Positions 4,786 through 36,518 of a stretch of DNA of 64,000 bases are shown here, one piece after another. Numbering within the stretch: position 1 is the first letter of the stretch; each line of letters opens with the position of its first letter. This DNA is from Bacillota bacterium (GTDB lineage Bacteria > Bacillota_I > Bacilli_A > ML615J-28 > CAG-698): contig JAEEHM010000093.1 of the NCBI GenBank assembly GCA_016280895.1, positions 38,750 to 102,749 on the forward strand, in the 5' to 3' direction. A program made the translations under genes and the position numbers. The notes beneath the pieces were generated by a model. The model did not search any database. It worked only from the letters and a program-made list of their open reading frames with translations, and was not told where the DNA came from.

Positions 4786-5913
4786 ATGAAAAAATGTCTG
4801 TTAATATCATATTTTTATAGTGACAATTTAGGAGATATTTGTATTAGTAACAAAATTGAAAGCGAAGTAAAAAAATATTTTGAAATAACAAAGTATCATA
4901 TAAATGGAAATATAAATATAGAAAAAAGGAAAAAAAATGCTCATAAAAAAAATAAAATAATTACCATAATGAGAAAAATCAAACTTGGTTTTTTATATGA
5001 TTTTTACTCAAAAATTAAAATCAAATCAAGAGTAAACTATGAACTGTCAAAGATGTCTTTCGACTGTGCGATTTTTGGTGGAGGAAATTTATTATTTGAA
5101 ACAACATATAATTCAAAATATATTAAAAATATAGAAAATATTTGTAATTTTTTAAGAAAACATAATATTCCATATATTTTCTCATCTATAGGTGCTGGTC
5201 CTTTTTTTAATAAGGCCCAAAAAGCGCGTGCAATTAGACTAGTTTCAAATAGTTTTTATTCTTCTTTTAGAGATGAAGCTTCTTATAGATTATTATACGA
5301 CGATAGTAACAAAGAAAAAATGTATATTACATCTGATCCAGTTTTAAGTTGCAATATAACTACTAATAGGGTAAAAAAAACAAATTATATTTTAATTAAT
5401 ATTATAAATATTGATTTATTTTTTAATAATTATGATAAGGAAAAAATGGTTAAAAAATTAATAGACATAATAAAACAAATTAGCGTGAGCAGATGTAAAA
5501 AAATATGTATTTTTTCATCTGATAAAGCAGATTATCCACTATTAAATGTTATTTACATGTGCTTAAATAAGGATGGTATAGATGTGGAACTTGAATTTAT
5601 AGAGACAGTTCAGGATTTATTTGACTTAATTTCAGGTGCAGATTTTATTATTGCTTCAAGGATGCATTCTTTAATTATTTCATATTTGTTAAATAAAGAG
5701 TTTCTATCATTGTCTTGGTCTGAAAAAGTAAATTCATTTATGAATATAATAGAAATGAATGAAAGAAATATTAAATATGAAGATGTATCTTTTGATGATA
5801 TAGATTCCTTAATGGATAAAAAGATAGTTTATAATAAAAAACAAATAGAAAAATTACGAAAACTATATAAAGAGGAAGTCGAAAGAATTGAATCATTCGA
5901 AAGAAACATATGA
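4786..5913 (+). CDS. Polysaccharide pyruvyl transferase family protein
   Basis: 375 residues. It begins CLLISYFYSDNLGDICISN, then has FGGGNLLFE near residue 100, SSIGAGPF near 130, DPVLS near 185 and ADFIIASRMHSLIIS near 285. This is the order of motifs in the CsaB/WcaK polysaccharide pyruvyl transferase family, which attaches ketal pyruvate to sugars using PEP. Not every member has been shown to be a pyruvyl transferase, so the exact reaction is uncertain. GGAGAG sits before ATG 4786. It lies between the polymerase and the flippase. Confidence 0.8.
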   Translation: MKKCLLISYFYSDNLGDICISNKIESEVKKYFEITKYHINGNINIEKRKKNAHKKNKIITIMRKIKLGFLYDFYSKIKIKSRVNYELSKMSFDCAIFGGGNLLFETTYNSKYIKNIENICNFLRKHNIPYIFSSIGAGPFFNKAQKARAIRLVSNSFYSSFRDEASYRLLYDDSNKEKMYITSDPVLSCNITTNRVKKTNYILINIINIDLFFNNYDKEKMVKKLIDIIKQISVSRCKKICIFSSDKADYPLLNVIYMCLNKDGIDVELEFIETVQDLFDLISGADFIIASRMHSLIISYLLNKEFLSLSWSEKVNSFMNIIEMNERNIKYEDVSFDDIDSLMDKKIVYNKKQIEKLRKLYKEEVERIESFERNI

Positions 5914-13711: not shown

Positions 13712-14063
13712 GAAATTAATATCATAGAACCAATTGAAGTATTTGATTGTCATAACTTTGAAGCAAGATCTTATTTAATATTAACTGATAGTGGTGGAAT
13801 ACAAGAAGAAGCACCAGCATATGGTGTACCAGTATTAGTAATGAGAGATACTACTGAAAGACATGAAGGAGTACAAGCAGGTACATTAAAAACTAGTAGG
13901 AACATCTGAAGAAGTAATATATAATGAATTTACTAAACTTCTTAATAATAAAGAAGAATATGCTAAAATGGCAAAAGCAGTAAATCCATATGGAGATGGA
14001 CATGCTTGTGAAAGAATTGCTGATATTCTAGAAGGAAAAGAATATCAGGAGTGGAAGAATTAA
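13712..14063 (+). pseudogene. 3' fragment of UDP-GlcNAc 2-epimerase (wecB tail), frameshifted
   Basis: Translation gives NIIEPIEVFDCHNFEA, then LILTDSGGIQEEAPAYGVPV, then after a frame change YGDGHACERIADILEG and KEYQEWKN-stop. This matches the C-terminal third of the intact wecB at 27408-28526 at both DNA and protein level. One extra A in the run near 13889-13893 breaks the frame between GTLK and LVGTSEE. There is no start and no N-terminal domain. It is a remnant between the AbiH and LPO_1073-like modules and is missing from the ORF track. Confidence 0.85.
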
Positions 14064-27407: not shown

Positions 27408-28526
27408 ATGAAAAAACGTGTAGTACTTGCTGTTGGATGTCGACCAGATGCAATTAAAATGATGCCTTTATATAAGGAATTATTAACAAGAAATAGTATT
27501 AAACCAATATTACTTTCTACTGGTCAGCAAAAACAAAACCTTGAAAAGATATTCGCAGAATTTAGTGTAAAACCAGATTACGATCTACATATCATGCGAA
27601 AAGATCAATCAACATTTGAAATCACTATTAATGTGTTATCTACTATTCAAGATGTATTAGATGAAATAGAACCTGATTTAGTATTAGTATGTGGTGATAC
27701 AACAAGTGCATTTGCGATAGCTCTTGCATGCTATTATTTAAGAATTCCACTAGGACATGTTGAGGCAGGTTTACGTACAAATAATATTTACTTCCCATAT
27801 CCAGAAGAAATGAATAGAAAATTCATTTCGATGATTGCACAGTATAATTTTGCACCTACTAAATATGCGAAAGCTAATTTAGTAAAAGAGGGAGTAAAGG
27901 AAGAAAATATTTATGTAACTGGTAATACTATTATAGATACTCTACCTTATACTGTAAGACCTAATTATACACATAAGGAATTAGAATGGGTAGGCGATGA
28001 TAAATTAATATTTATCACTGCACATCGAAGAGAAAGCATTGGAAAAGCAATGCACAATATGTTTAAAGCAATCAGAAAAGTATTAGATGAAAACAAAGAT
28101 GTGAAAGCAATCTATCCAATTCATATGAATCCACAGGTAAGAAAAGCTGCAATGGAAGAATTAGGTGGATGTGATAGAATTCACATCATTGAACCTTTAG
28201 ATGTTGTAGATTGTCATAACTTTGAAGCAAGCTCTTATCTAATATTAACTGATAGTGGTGGTATTCAAGAAGAAGCACCTACTATGGGTATACCAGTACT
28301 TGTTATGAAGAAGACTACAGATAGACCAGAGGGAGTTATAGCTGGAACATCTAAGGTAGTTGGTACAAGTGAACAATCAATATATAAAGAATTCTCTAAG
28401 CTTATTAAAAATAAAGCTGCTTATGCGAAAATGTCTAAAAAAACAAATCCTTATGGAGATGGACATGCATGTGAAAGAATTGCAGACATTATTGAAGGCA
28501 AAGAATATCAAGAATGGAAGAATTAA
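27408..28526 (+). CDS. wecB: Non-hydrolysing UDP-GlcNAc 2-epimerase
   Basis: 372 residues of the WecB/MnaA family: VVLAVGCRPDAIKMMPLYKE at the start, VLVCGDTTSAFAIA near 97, GHVEAGLRTNNIYFPYPEE near 118 and LTDSGGIQEEAPTMGIPV near 285. It interconverts UDP-GlcNAc and UDP-ManNAc for teichoic acid or capsule sugars. It stands alone with its own promoter and terminator inside the accessory island; its tail matches the fragment at 13712-14063, so wecB tails occur at least twice here. AAGGAGGG gives a clear start. Confidence 0.92.
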   Translation: MKKRVVLAVGCRPDAIKMMPLYKELLTRNSIKPILLSTGQQKQNLEKIFAEFSVKPDYDLHIMRKDQSTFEITINVLSTIQDVLDEIEPDLVLVCGDTTSAFAIALACYYLRIPLGHVEAGLRTNNIYFPYPEEMNRKFISMIAQYNFAPTKYAKANLVKEGVKEENIYVTGNTIIDTLPYTVRPNYTHKELEWVGDDKLIFITAHRRESIGKAMHNMFKAIRKVLDENKDVKAIYPIHMNPQVRKAAMEELGGCDRIHIIEPLDVVDCHNFEASSYLILTDSGGIQEEAPTMGIPVLVMKKTTDRPEGVIAGTSKVVGTSEQSIYKEFSKLIKNKAAYAKMSKKTNPYGDGHACERIADIIEGKEYQEWKN

Positions 28527-28570: not shown

Positions 28571-28746
28571 CAAATTATACTATGTATTGTAAAGTGGACT
28601 GGAAGTAATTGAAGAAATATTTAAGTATATTTAATTGAAATTTTAGTAATTTTCCTATATCAATTTATAAATATATATATTAGATAACTATAAATATTTT
28701 ATATATTATACTTATCATCAATATAAAATGTATCATAAATAATATA

Positions 28747-28775
28747 GGAGGAGAAAATGGATAAAATTTTATAAG
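28747..28775 (+). other. Strong ribosome binding site and ATG with apparent frameshift at codon 4-5
   Basis: AGGAGGAGAAA precedes ATG 28757, but the frame reads M-D-K-I-L-stop. Adding one base to the AAAATTTT run (28763-28770) would give MDKIFISEYKYFTEEHLLKV and join the long downstream frame. This is either a real frameshift, a slippage-controlled start or a sequencing error in a short homopolymer. Confidence 0.6.
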
Positions 28776-28803: not shown

Positions 28804-30168
28804 TTGCTTAAAGTGCTTGGGGAAGATAAAAGAAAGATATGTGAAGTAGATAATTATAAAAAAGATTATTATTTTGAAAATGCATATATTCAAGAAGAAA
28901 ATAATGAGTATATTTTGTATTTAGGAATTAAATATGAAAAGTATTTCTATATCAAACTTAATAATAAGATGGATGATGATGATATCAAACTAATAAAAAG
29001 TATAATCAATAATTTTATTAAAATTAGCATGTATTCCATAGATGGAAAAAAACAACATGATTATAATTCAAAAATTAGTAAAAATAGAAATTATCAGTAT
29101 GCTCTACAAATAGGAATATGCGAATGGCTAATAGGAGGAAATGCTAATATAACAAATATTGAGAATCTATTTAATATTTTAGAAAAATGGTCATTAAAAA
29201 CATATGAAGGGAAAAAAGTATCTTATGGATTTGTTATTAATACTGAAATCAAAGACACTGATGAGAATAACGATGACTTTCTAGAATTTCTTAAAGATGA
29301 CTTTAGTGCTGTATTAACTGATCCAATAAGTTCGGTGTTTGAATTAGATTCAAATTGTAATTTTGTTTCCTACAAGACCATACTTGACGAAAATAATAGT
29401 GGCTGGGTAGATGGATTTCAATTAATTAATAATTTGCCATATAGATTTGCAAATCTAATATATAAATTTGTTGATAATCCTAATAAGATGGGAATCTTTC
29501 TGCTAAATAATGGAGATATTATTCTATCTAAAAATAGAGAAATTAGGTTTGTAAAAAGAAATAATGAGTGGTTGAATTTTAATGTCAAGGCATTCCGTAA
29601 CGCAGTTGAAGATTACATAGTCATTAATAAACTATCAGATAAATTATTAAATGAAGTTTATTCAACAGTTCTTGATGTTTCATTTTCTCATACTGGCGGA
29701 ATAATCGCTATTGTTAATAATATTAATCAACTAATCAATGATGAAGTATTAAATAAATGTGATTATTTATCATATGATTATTCAAATGATTATATAAAGA
29801 AAGATTTAGAAAAGAATAATGAGAATAGCGATAATCCTACAAATAATGATGTTTTAGAAAAAGATATTAACAAAAGATTATTAAAAAGAAGCATAATTCG
29901 AAAAACTTTAAATGGTGAATATGATTTTGTATCAATAAATAGAAAATTGAGATGTGAGTTAGTAAGTTTAGATGGAGCGTGCATAATTACAAATTATGGT
30001 AAAGTATGTTCGTTCGGAGCTATCATAAAAAATGATAGTGGATCAACAGGTGGTGGTAGAGGCGCTGCCGCCAAAAAGCTATCTTCTGATGGGCTTGCAA
30101 TAAAGATATCAACTGATGGTTACATAGAAGTATATATCAAGCAAAAATGCGTTTATAAAATAAAATAA
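28804..30168 (+). CDS. DAC/DisA_N-like nucleotide-binding sensor protein, possibly frameshifted at the start
   Basis: 454 residues from TTG 28804, about 469 if the frame is repaired to ATG 28757. The C-terminal region has SLDGACIITNYGKVCSFGAI, then GGGRGAAAKKLSSDGLAIKI, mirroring the DGA...G-RHRAA...sDAlvivvS order of diadenylate cyclase (DAC) domains, but the RHR is replaced by GGGRG. VSFSHTGGIIAIVNN near 295 also fits this superfamily. Such DAC-like proteins have been proposed as nucleotide sensors in bacterial conflict systems rather than cyclases. No partner gene is fused. It is followed at once by the structured RNA. Confidence 0.55.
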   Translation: MLKVLGEDKRKICEVDNYKKDYYFENAYIQEENNEYILYLGIKYEKYFYIKLNNKMDDDDIKLIKSIINNFIKISMYSIDGKKQHDYNSKISKNRNYQYALQIGICEWLIGGNANITNIENLFNILEKWSLKTYEGKKVSYGFVINTEIKDTDENNDDFLEFLKDDFSAVLTDPISSVFELDSNCNFVSYKTILDENNSGWVDGFQLINNLPYRFANLIYKFVDNPNKMGIFLLNNGDIILSKNREIRFVKRNNEWLNFNVKAFRNAVEDYIVINKLSDKLLNEVYSTVLDVSFSHTGGIIAIVNNINQLINDEVLNKCDYLSYDYSNDYIKKDLEKNNENSDNPTNNDVLEKDINKRLLKRSIIRKTLNGEYDFVSINRKLRCELVSLDGACIITNYGKVCSFGAIIKNDSGSTGGGRGAAAKKLSSDGLAIKISTDGYIEVYIKQKCVYKIK

Positions 30169-30172
30169 AAAT

Positions 30173-30336
30173 TTGACAAATTATTAATAAAAGTATATAA
30201 TATAGTTACAAATTAAAGATAGTATAGCGGGAAATCGTTTTTACTAGATCATACTTAAATGGATGGTTTATGTATGAGTGCGACGCGGAGAGCGTAGAAA
30301 AAAGATGCAAAACAATAGTTTTGCATTTTTCTTTTT
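30173..30336 (+). ncRNA. Unidentified structured small RNA with own promoter and terminator
   Basis: TTGACA (30173-30178), 17 bp and TATAAT (30196-30201) predict a start near 30208. The transcript would end at ATGCAAAAC-AATA-GTTTTGCAT plus T-rich DNA (30305-30335), about 130 nt, with no ribosome binding site or open frame. CATACTTAAAT and GTTTATGTATG (30250-30276) form a 10-pair hairpin with GGATG loop, and ACGC-GGAGA-GCGT forms a second. The GC-rich GTGCGACGCGGAGAGCGTAG stands out from its AT-rich surroundings. It matches no riboswitch I know. Confidence 0.6.
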
Positions 30337-30492
30337 ATATTTAGAAATTTTTTGACTATTTTTTGTAAATATATAAATGAAGGGAAATTATAATTTTTTC
30401 AGATTTTTTCAATTTTTGATACAAAATGTATCACAAACAAAGAAAATACATATGATAATATGCATATTTTCTTCAAAAAATATATTTTAATG

Positions 30493-30576
30493 AATATTCA
30501 AATATTTTGAATATTGCTTGAAAAATAAGAATAATTATAGTATAATACTATTGAATATTCAAATAATTTGAATATT
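30493..30576 (+). promoter_or_regulatory. Promoter flanked by two 23-bp palindromic operators
   Basis: AATATTCAAA-TAT-TTTGAATATT (30493-30515) and AATATTCAAA-TAA-TTTGAATATT (30554-30576) are identical in both arms and 61 bp apart. Between them lie TTGAAA (30518-30523), 17 bp and TATAAT (30541-30546). The first site abuts the -35 and the second covers the transcript start to the GGAGGT, ideal for repression by blocking or looping. TGATACAAAATGTATCA at 30417-30433 is a further palindrome upstream. Confidence 0.72.
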
Positions 30577-30587
30577 GGAGGTAAAAT

Positions 30588-31697
30588 ATGGTAATTATGA
30601 AGATGAAATTAGATAATGTGTTAGCATTCAATAATTTTGAAGTAAACTTTTCTTATCCACAAAAATTGAAAAGATCCTTAATTCAAAATGAATATTTATG
30701 TAATTATACTAATTTTAGATATAAAAAAGCAAACATATTTTTTGGATCAAATGCATCTGGAAAAACTAGCTTAATAAAATGTATTTGGGATATAGTGTGT
30801 TTATTAAAATATAAAGATATAAGTTTTTTAAGAAAAGAAATTAATAGAAATAATGCGTTTATTGAAATAGATTTTGTAGATGATAACAATAGTTATTATA
30901 TCTATAGGATGAAAATAAAGATTGATAATAATGATACATTAATAGCTATAAATAGAATTTTATTGAAAGAAGAAGATTCGTATGAAAAAATATCTAAGTT
31001 ATTAGGCAATTTAAAATATGAATACAAAGATTATTTAGAATCTCTAAAACAATATGATTTCAATATATCTTGGTATGCTTTACTGCCTGCTACTGAAGAA
31101 GGTTTTGATATTGTAAGATTAGTTGAATGTAACAATGATAAAGAAAGAAAAGAATATTTTAATATTTTAAATTCTGTTTTAAATTCATTAGATACATCAA
31201 TTATGAATGTTAAAAGTAGTAATGACGCAAAAGATGCTATTGTGATAGAACATGAAAATGTTGGTAAAATAATAGTACAAGCTGGAAATAAAATATCTAA
31301 CATTCCATATTTATCTAGTGGAACTAAATATGGAATAAGTATAGCTAATATGCTTTATTATGTTAAAAATAAAAAAGATGCAATCTTTTTAATTGATGAA
31401 CAATTTTCATATGTAAATTCTGATTTAGAAAAAGCAATATTATCTACAATGATTTCACTACTTGGTGAAAGTGCACAATTGTTCTATACAACACATAATG
31501 AAGATGTACTAGAATTAGCTTATCCTTTCCATTCATTCTACTTTATGAAAAAGAAGTGCATTGCAAATCAACAAGTTATTGAAGTATCTTGTGCATCAGA
31601 AGTAGAGAATAGAAACAACGTTTCAGCTAAAAGTATCATTGATAATGATATCTTTTCAACAGTACCAAATGTTGAAAAGATATATGAGATTATATAA
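30588..31697 (+). CDS. AAA_15/RloA-like ATPase
   Basis: 369 residues. ANIFFGSNASGKTSLIKCIW is Walker A near residue 50; YLSSGTKYGISIANMLYY near 240 is the signature-like loop; DAIFLIDEQFSYVNSDLEKA near 265 is Walker B, with the unusual DEQ, and FYTTHNEDVLELAYPFHSFY follows. This matches the AAA_15/RloA type of defence ATPases. Its C-terminus has no recognisable nuclease. GGAGGT five bases before ATG 30588 sets the start. No co-directional partner gene follows; it converges on the ToxN-like gene across a shared terminator. Confidence 0.8.
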   Translation: MVIMKMKLDNVLAFNNFEVNFSYPQKLKRSLIQNEYLCNYTNFRYKKANIFFGSNASGKTSLIKCIWDIVCLLKYKDISFLRKEINRNNAFIEIDFVDDNNSYYIYRMKIKIDNNDTLIAINRILLKEEDSYEKISKLLGNLKYEYKDYLESLKQYDFNISWYALLPATEEGFDIVRLVECNNDKERKEYFNILNSVLNSLDTSIMNVKSSNDAKDAIVIEHENVGKIIVQAGNKISNIPYLSSGTKYGISIANMLYYVKNKKDAIFLIDEQFSYVNSDLEKAILSTMISLLGESAQLFYTTHNEDVLELAYPFHSFYFMKKKCIANQQVIEVSCASEVENRNNVSAKSIIDNDIFSTVPNVEKIYEII

Positions 31698-31729
31698 AAA
31701 ACATTATCCTTTTTGGATAATGTTTTTTA
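31696..31729. terminator. Bidirectional terminator between the ATPase and toxN-like genes
   Basis: AAAAAACATTATCC-TTTTT-GGATAATGTTTTTT has A and T tracts on both sides of a 9-bp stem, so it can stop transcripts from both converging genes. Confidence 0.85.
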
Positions 31730-32212
31730 CTTATACTCTTTATATTTTTCTTCGAGTAATTTCAAGTTACAAATACGATTTTTGATTATTCTTTGATGAG
31801 AAGTTAATTTCGATTCATCTAAAAAAGCAATTGTTCTTATTTTAAAAGCATTTTTTTGTATTATTTCAAAATCATTATTTAATTCTATATATTGGTTTTG
31901 AAGTAGTCTTCGATATTTATGATCTTGTATGTTATTAATGTTAACTTCAATAAGAGCTTCATCGATTACGGGAATCATATTGTTTAGTAAGATGGCACCA
32001 TACTTGCCATTACCTATTTTTCTAAAATCAATTGCGTTTTTCATATTAACGTGCTTTTGTTTAGGAGAAGTAAATGGGGCGTAGTATTTAAGATCTCCGA
32101 CTTGTAATACAATTCCAATGTATGGTCTTGATTCGTGTTTGTTAAAACACACTTTCTCATCAAATTGATGCAAATAATTAATATAATCATCTGTAATATT
32201 ATAAACTCTCAT
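31727..32212 (-). CDS. Type III toxin, ToxN/AbiQ-like endoribonuclease
   Basis: 161 residues. RPYIGIVLQVGDLKYYAPFT then SPKQKH near residues 28-53, and GKYGAILLNNMIPVIDEALI near 80, are the defining motifs of the ToxN_toxin family (ToxN, AbiQ, CptN). These RNases cut RNA and are held inactive by an RNA antitoxin made of tandem repeats. Exactly such repeats lie upstream on the same strand. The start follows AGGGGGAAATAT. The length is near the 150-175 residues usual for the family. Confidence 0.88.
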   Translation of the reverse strand: MRVYNITDDYINYLHQFDEKVCFNKHESRPYIGIVLQVGDLKYYAPFTSPKQKHVNMKNAIDFRKIGNGKYGAILLNNMIPVIDEALIEVNINNIQDHKYRRLLQNQYIELNNDFEIIQKNAFKIRTIAFLDESKLTSHQRIIKNRICNLKLLEEKYKEYK

Positions 32213-32232
32213 ATATTTCCCCCTTAGATAAA

Positions 32233-32257
32233 AAAATAGGAGGCCATTTCCTGCCCC
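32233..32257 (-). terminator. Leaky terminator between RNA antitoxin and toxN-like gene
   Basis: On the reverse strand TAGGGGC-AGGAAATG-GCCTCCTA forms a stem with one bulge, followed by T7. Type III systems carry a terminator at this point, which makes antitoxin RNA far more abundant than toxin mRNA. Confidence 0.7.
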
Positions 32258-32259
32258 TA

Positions 32260-32371
32260 TATTGGTCTCATTTATGGCTGAGAATCACCGCTTTTTTAGG
32301 TCTCCACTTTATGGTAGGAGCTCACCGCTTTTTTAGGGCCCCTCTTTATGGTGGAGGCTCACCGCTCTTTA
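32260..32371 (-). ncRNA. Type III RNA antitoxin: three 37-nt repeats
   Basis: On the plus strand CACCGCT falls at 32286, 32323 and 32360 and TTATGG at 32272, 32309 and 32346, an exact 37-base period three times. In the RNA each unit has AAGCGGTGA, a stem 5' arm, ACC or GCC, CATAAA and the stem 3' arm. The stem covaries: TCTCA/TGAGA, CTCC/GGAG and CCTC/GAGG in units 1-3. GGU can pair with ACC/GCC, giving an H-type pseudoknot as in ToxI. It is upstream of and co-directional with the ToxN-like gene. Confidence 0.85.
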
Positions 32372-32394
32372 TAAGTATCTCTACTTACACCATT

Positions 32395-32423
32395 ATTTTA
32401 CTATAATAGAAATGTTTTGTCAA
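32395..32423 (-). promoter_or_regulatory. Promoter of the RNA antitoxin
   Basis: On the reverse strand TTGACA (32423-32418), a 17-bp spacer and TAAAAT (32400-32395) predict a start just before the first repeat. A consensus -35 fits the need for abundant antitoxin RNA. Confidence 0.75.
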
Positions 32424-36328: not shown

Positions 36329-36341
36329 AATTAAAACAACA

Positions 36342-36518
36342 ATAAATAGAGGCGCAAGTCTTATGATAACTTATGTAATTAGGTGAAAAATACATAAGGG
36401 GAAAGGAAGCCTTGCCGAAGGGATTAAGTACCTAATACTTAATTGACCTGGGCATACAGAGAACATCTGTATGACTGTCGTATTAGTAATAATACGTTGA
36501 GCTATTAAATATTTATGT
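36342..36518 (+). promoter_or_regulatory. Lysine riboswitch (L box)
   Basis: AGAGGCGCAAGT, AAGGGGAAAGGAAGCC, TTGCCGAAGGG, CCTGGGCATACAGA, GACTGTCG and GAGCTATT occur in the order of the five-helix lysine aptamer. The 3' strand of P1 continues as CTATTAAATATT (36502-36513), which is exactly complementary to AATATTTAATAG (36550-36561) in the following terminator. So lysine binding keeps P1 closed and lets the terminator form, while without lysine the antiterminator forms. It controls the transporter gene downstream. Confidence 0.92.

Follow-up and report, generated by a model that had tools for sequence, protein, structure and literature searches.

What is the compact gene at positions 30173-30336 of this DNA, and with which of its neighbours does it work? 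In the window (the whole stretch of 64,000 nucleotides analysed here, whose coordinates are used unless another locus is named), it lies between a gene for a protein remotely resembling diadenylate cyclases (DACs) and a gene for an AAA ATPase. It is a dedicated, compact non-coding RNA gene, unclassified, with its own transcription. Its sigma-70 promoter (30173..30201, + strand) agrees with all 12 of 12 consensus positions, with TTGACA at 30173-30178 and TATAAT at 30196-30201 separated by a 17-nt spacer, and follows the stop codon of the DAC-like gene by 5 nt. Perfect sites of this kind are found three times on the + strand of the window, the present one included, and not at all on the - strand. 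The predicted non-coding RNA of ~129 nt (30208..30336, + strand), whose 5′-end is placed from the promoter and whose 3′-end is placed from the terminator, carries three hairpins on the + strand ahead of its terminator. Hairpin 1 (30220..30246) has 10 pairs and is interrupted, and hairpin 2 (30249..30277) pairs CATACTTAAAT with GGTTTATGTATG; the MFE and centroid structures agree on both. Hairpin 3 (30283..30295) is the G+C-rich stem-loop ACGC-GGAGA-GCGT, supported by sequence and fold. A terminator scan placed an intrinsic terminator with its U-tract at 30301..30336, consisting of a 13-pair stem (30301-30330) with a loop of 4 followed by CTTTTT; the site is terminator-like on the opposite strand too. 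The scan covered 3 kb and returned three terminator-like sites where 0.3 would be expected. The original prediction of an RNA of about 130 nt with a consensus promoter, a consensus terminator and the ACGC-GGAGA-GCGT stem-loop is borne out in each of these features, while its “10-pair hairpin” exists at 30249-30277 but comprises 11 pairs, interrupted by a single internal mismatch.

The segment 30207-30337 folds at -34.6 kcal/mol (z -4.45 against dinucleotide shuffles, with 0/200 shuffles as good). When the terminator is left out, the 5′ 90 nt reach a z of -2.24, a value equalled by 3% of shuffles, and 5% of random 90-nt segments of the window reach z -2.45. The terminator thus supplies much of the fold signal, and by energy the internal hairpins stand only mildly above chance. 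The earlier description is right, although for the sequence that precedes the terminator “structured RNA” goes somewhat too far. It had also been said to lack coding potential, and this agrees with the reading frames: all six are broken, and the longest ATG frames, one of 12 aa (30259-30297) and one of 24 aa that reads on through the terminator (30270-30344), both lack a good Shine-Dalgarno sequence. No direct repeats were found inside 30160-30336.

No recognisable homologue of the RNA, by sequence or covariance, was found in the data searched. Rfam returned no family at the gathering score and nothing credible at relaxed thresholds, in agreement with the earlier failure to match any known riboswitch or sRNA, and the covariance model of the abiF motif (RF03085) gave no match up to an E value of 10. 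BLAST searches of its own genome, genus and family recovered terminators and A+T-rich pieces but no relative, and those of phages and plasmids recovered promoter- or terminator-like or A+T-rich pieces alone. The ~30-bit matches of a single-sequence covariance model (R1) in 395 genomes of the class cover only terminator hairpins. The exact pattern GCGACGCGGAGAGCGT occurs 118 times in genomes and 25 times in viruses; these matches were judged to be chance, since those outside its own locus never have A+T-rich surroundings or continue past ~23 nt. A guide RNA, one of the roles first suggested, was dropped: no target was found, matches elsewhere in the genome are to the terminator only, and no phage match is convincing.

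The gene immediately upstream (28804..30168, + strand), the probable partner of the RNA, was recognised as DAC-like from its homologues, their alignment and sub-threshold Pfam DAC matches in its relatives. The protein of the window has no match in Pfam, PADLOC or NCBIfam, and its relatives L188 and L189 score 18.9 and 19.5 bits against Pfam DAC (PF02457), below the 27-bit cut-off. The DAC-like label given by the original prediction is consequently retained as a remote similarity seen through these two relatives, and not as a Pfam match of the window protein itself. The DGA motif (D390-G391-A392) is invariant in an alignment of 15 homologues, and a G-G-R-x-A-A-like region is present in all DAC-like relatives whose end is available. 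In the window protein, GGRxAAA replaces the RHR motif of DACs, of which the Arg alone is kept, so that synthesis of c-di-AMP is doubtful. To judge from sequence, the protein called “DAC-like” is a distant relation whose active site is altered, and it does not belong to the family itself. A structure predicted from the single sequence was unusable (pLDDT 34), a PDB sequence search gave no match, and neither did searches of viral contigs with the protein in several forms. A good Shine-Dalgarno sequence at 28746 and an ATG at 28757 (28746..28764, + strand) do not share the frame of the gene body, which is open from 28765 and has its first in-frame start, a TTG, at 28804. This could reflect a frameshift, an error of sequencing or draft assembly, or phase variation. 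As the gene has no natural in-frame start, any module to which it belongs may be off or decaying in this genome.

Relatives of the DAC-like protein are found on both mobile and chromosomal DNA. The closest, L181, lies on a human-gut scaffold labelled as phage (40-43% identity), followed by L182 on the Vescimonas plasmid NZ_AP023417 (30-32%) and L188 in the clostridial genome G1002 (31-32%). Chromosomal relatives in Firmicutes (L183-L186 and L192-L197) share 26-28% identity over the full alignment, and the alphaproteobacterial plasmid relatives L189 and L190 share 18-20%. In a tree with long branches and open forks, the mobile-type proteins (window, L181, L182 and L188) fall outside the group formed by the chromosomal and alphaproteobacterial ones. 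CBASS-type genes adjoin L189, the Agrobacterium relative.

A promoter, a folded RNA and a terminator follow the DAC-like gene in all three mobile-type loci that have downstream sequence (window, L182 and L188); L181 is uninformative because its sequence ends 27 nt past the gene. At L182, the DAC-like gene stops at 5134, and 29 nt further on a 12/12 promoter (5163-5191) precedes an RNA of ~213 nt with a fold z of -6.96 and a terminator ending at ~5409. At L188, the promoter TTGACA-17-TATTGT (10/12; 2602-2630) begins 43 nt after the stop at 2559 and precedes an RNA of ~155 nt (z -5.89) whose terminator lies near 2749-2791. Without their terminators these two RNAs are still folded, with z values of -3.7 (L182) and -4.85 (L188), and at both loci the next gene is convergent, which leaves the promoter to serve the RNA only. 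Neither locus has an AAA ATPase gene. Their RNAs have no Rfam match and, by BLAST, only self-matches. As a control, 113 genes followed by 120 nt or more of free sequence were scored for a promoter of at least 10/12 within 60 nt. Ten of them had one, and five of the ten were DAC-like genes; of the five that remain, one lies before the RNase P RNA candidate of the same genome and another before the lysine riboswitch, which leaves a background of ~3%. Against this background, finding the promoter at both further mobile-type loci (2/2) is unlikely by chance (roughly 0.001 to 0.01, a post hoc estimate from tiny numbers). A check proposed with the original prediction, linkage to the DAC-like gene or to the ATPase across genomes, points to the former and not to the latter.

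This linkage rests on three loci, one of which was the starting point, and the three RNAs cannot be aligned: their best shared 7-mer is not significant, and neither is a GATRGTA common to their 5′ parts. With no alignable sequence among them, their common ancestry is unproven. Moreover, none of the four chromosomal relatives L183-L186 is followed by such an RNA; three of these DAC-like genes lie between lon and an AddB-like gene, and L186 shares the AddB-like side only. In all six of the relatives L192-L197, from small clostridial genomes of the same class as those four, a sigma-factor-like gene stands between the end of an FtsY-like gene and the DAC-like gene, and RNase P RNA comes next, always in this order; synteny alone can therefore place an RNA gene behind a DAC-like gene. 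No folded RNA follows the gene of the distant relative L198 (z -0.44). L189 and L190 were set aside as tests, as other genes lie directly at the gene end or an insertion sequence cuts it. By reading, the very distant L198 gene (in G1380) appears to sit in an integron-like cassette array, with attC-like repeats bearing GTTAGCTG/CAGCTAAC ends at 300-460, 1830-1900 and 2690-2800.

These observations bear on the reading that the RNA, whether an orphan trans-acting sRNA or a remnant in decay, owes its place after the DAC-like gene to chance and is unrelated to the RNA genes of L182 and L188. Such a reading would account for the missing homologues, the dissimilarity of the three RNAs, the RNase P precedent and the only mildly unusual fold of the 5′ part. 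It fits poorly with the rarity of such promoters behind control genes, given their presence at both informative relatives, and with the RNAs of L182 and L188, which fold far better than their shuffles. We regard it as rather unlikely. In our judgement, the RNA is probably linked to the upstream DAC-like gene as its partner.

An RNA gene of this anatomy beside a protein gene in a defence island suggests a protein-RNA pair, and the nearest precedent is AbiF-RCd22 of Clostridioides difficile, in which an RNA of ~100-130 nt with a SigA promoter and a terminator binds and silences AbiF (PMC12373285). This precedent favours a role of the RNA in restraining the DAC-like protein, and the two are tentatively proposed to form a two-part conflict module. 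The DAC-like protein would be a conflict effector or an enzyme that makes a signal. It would be bound and kept inactive by the short folded RNA, which would be synthesised constantly from its consensus promoter and ended by a strong terminator. Should infection stop host transcription or attack RNA, the short-lived RNA would be lost and the protein released, much as in AbiF-RCd22 or ToxIN but with an unrelated partner protein. The sequence indicates the anatomy of the RNA gene and its recurrence behind mobile-type DAC-like genes; from these we infer binding, inhibition, the trigger and the activity of the protein. It is conceivable, though somewhat doubtful, that the locus represents a new class of conflict module in the mobile DNA of Firmicutes, one that pairs a remote DAC-like protein with a short structured RNA of its own as controller, the RNAs diverging fast.

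Among readings that accept the linkage, the main rival gives the RNA an activating or sensing role, a choice that follows from the DACs of CBASS-linked defence and from the CBASS-type genes beside L189. A DAC was shown to be essential in the CBASS-linked phage defence system DS-2 (PMC13092281), and bacterial cGAS-type cyclases of CBASS can be activated by a structured phage RNA, according to one report (PMC10686824). By analogy, the RNA could contribute positively to the system, as a cofactor, scaffold or sensor, and its loss, cleavage or reshaping on infection would start nucleotide signalling by the DAC-like protein. The linkage evidence serves this reading and the antitoxin reading equally, and sequence cannot settle between an RNA antitoxin and a sensor. 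The activating or sensing reading is disfavoured by the lack of an effector gene adjoining the module in L182 or L188 and by the catalytic RHR motif not being kept, which puts c-di-AMP synthesis in doubt, and we consider it unlikely.

The AAA ATPase gene, which resembles AbiLi (30588..31697, + strand), lies 250 nt downstream of the RNA on the same strand, and both ToxI and RCd22 sit 5′ of the genes they control (PMC12373285). The RNA might accordingly belong to the ATPase in the type III order of RNA, terminator and gene. This is very unlikely: the ATPase has its own 11/12 promoter (30518-30546) within paired palindromes, its Acinetobacter relative, the one case found, has no promoter-and-terminator RNA upstream, and no ATPase occurs at the other loci that pair a DAC-like gene with an RNA. 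The ATPase was judged to stand outside the module. The palindromes that bracket its promoter are near-perfect and 23 nt long (30493-30515 and 30554-30576; AATATTCAAATATTTTGAATATT and AATATTCAAATAATTTGAATATT), and this operator-like pair, at 30488 and 30549, is the sole repeat family in the stretch scanned around the RNA. The original description of the gene as a repressed AAA ATPase is plausible, given the position of the palindromes and the resemblance to AbiLi. No repressor gene adjoins the palindromes.

The wider neighbourhood is, as first described, one of conflict genes. ToxN/AbiQ, AbiLi-like and SoFic-like genes occur in the window, and OLD/RloB-type genes were recognised by reading translations. 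A type III toxin-antitoxin system of the ToxIN/AbiQ kind occupies 31727-32400 (- strand). Its ToxN gene (31727-32212, - strand) has a Pfam E value of 1.5e-45, and upstream of this lies the antitoxin RNA with three 37-nt repeats (~32271-32381), an 11/12 promoter and a hairpin between the repeats and the gene. An intact UDP-GlcNAc 2-epimerase gene (27408-28526) has a broken copy of its 3′-end 14 kb upstream (13736-14063, corresponding to 28190-28526, by reading). Much of the defence island lies between the two copies, an arrangement suggestive of insertion or recombination at the epimerase gene. Further along, a lysine riboswitch (RF00168, 92.6 bits) lies at 36339-36512, before an NhaC-type transporter gene.

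A housekeeping RNA or riboswitch (RNase P, SRP, 6S or tRNA-like) diverged beyond recognition, an idea prompted by the RNase P RNA that follows chromosomal DAC-like relatives, is hardly credible in view of the negative Rfam searches, the unsuitable length, a separate RNase P candidate on another contig (C36:9309-9652, below the family cut-off) and the lack of a co-transcribed downstream gene, unlike a riboswitch.

The preferred reading, restraint of the DAC-like protein by its own RNA, can be set against systems already described. To our knowledge, conflict systems that keep a protein in check with a dedicated RNA are few (ToxIN-type, AbiF and Cre-type; see also PMC12373285), and for the most part the proteins concerned are ribonucleases or small toxins. 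In the literature found, no RNA partner of a DAC is described. If the DAC-like protein does have its own RNA, RNA control would extend to a nucleotide-signalling fold, in a compact two-gene unit. Like type III ToxIN/AbiQ systems, the locus pairs a small RNA that has a promoter and terminator with a conflict protein. Unlike them, its RNA has no tandem repeats and lies downstream of the gene, and its DAC-like partner is not an endoribonuclease of the ToxN, CptN or TenpN type; the ToxN gene next door has repeats of its own. From AbiF-RCd22 it differs in that RCd22 lies upstream of its gene and is partly co-transcribed with it, in that the partner there is AbiF and not a DAC-like protein, and in the lack of an RF03085 match here. 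It resembles AbiF-RCd22 in joining an abortive-infection-type protein to an RNA of ~100-130 nt that has its own sigma-70 promoter and an intrinsic terminator, on mobile DNA. The protein departs from diadenylate cyclases (PF02457) in its sub-cut-off scores, the RHR motif that is not kept and an extra N-terminal region of ~270 residues. With DisA, CdaA and the DAC of DS-2 it shares the DGA motif and a C-terminal GxR-AA region, and its relative L189 lies near CBASS genes.
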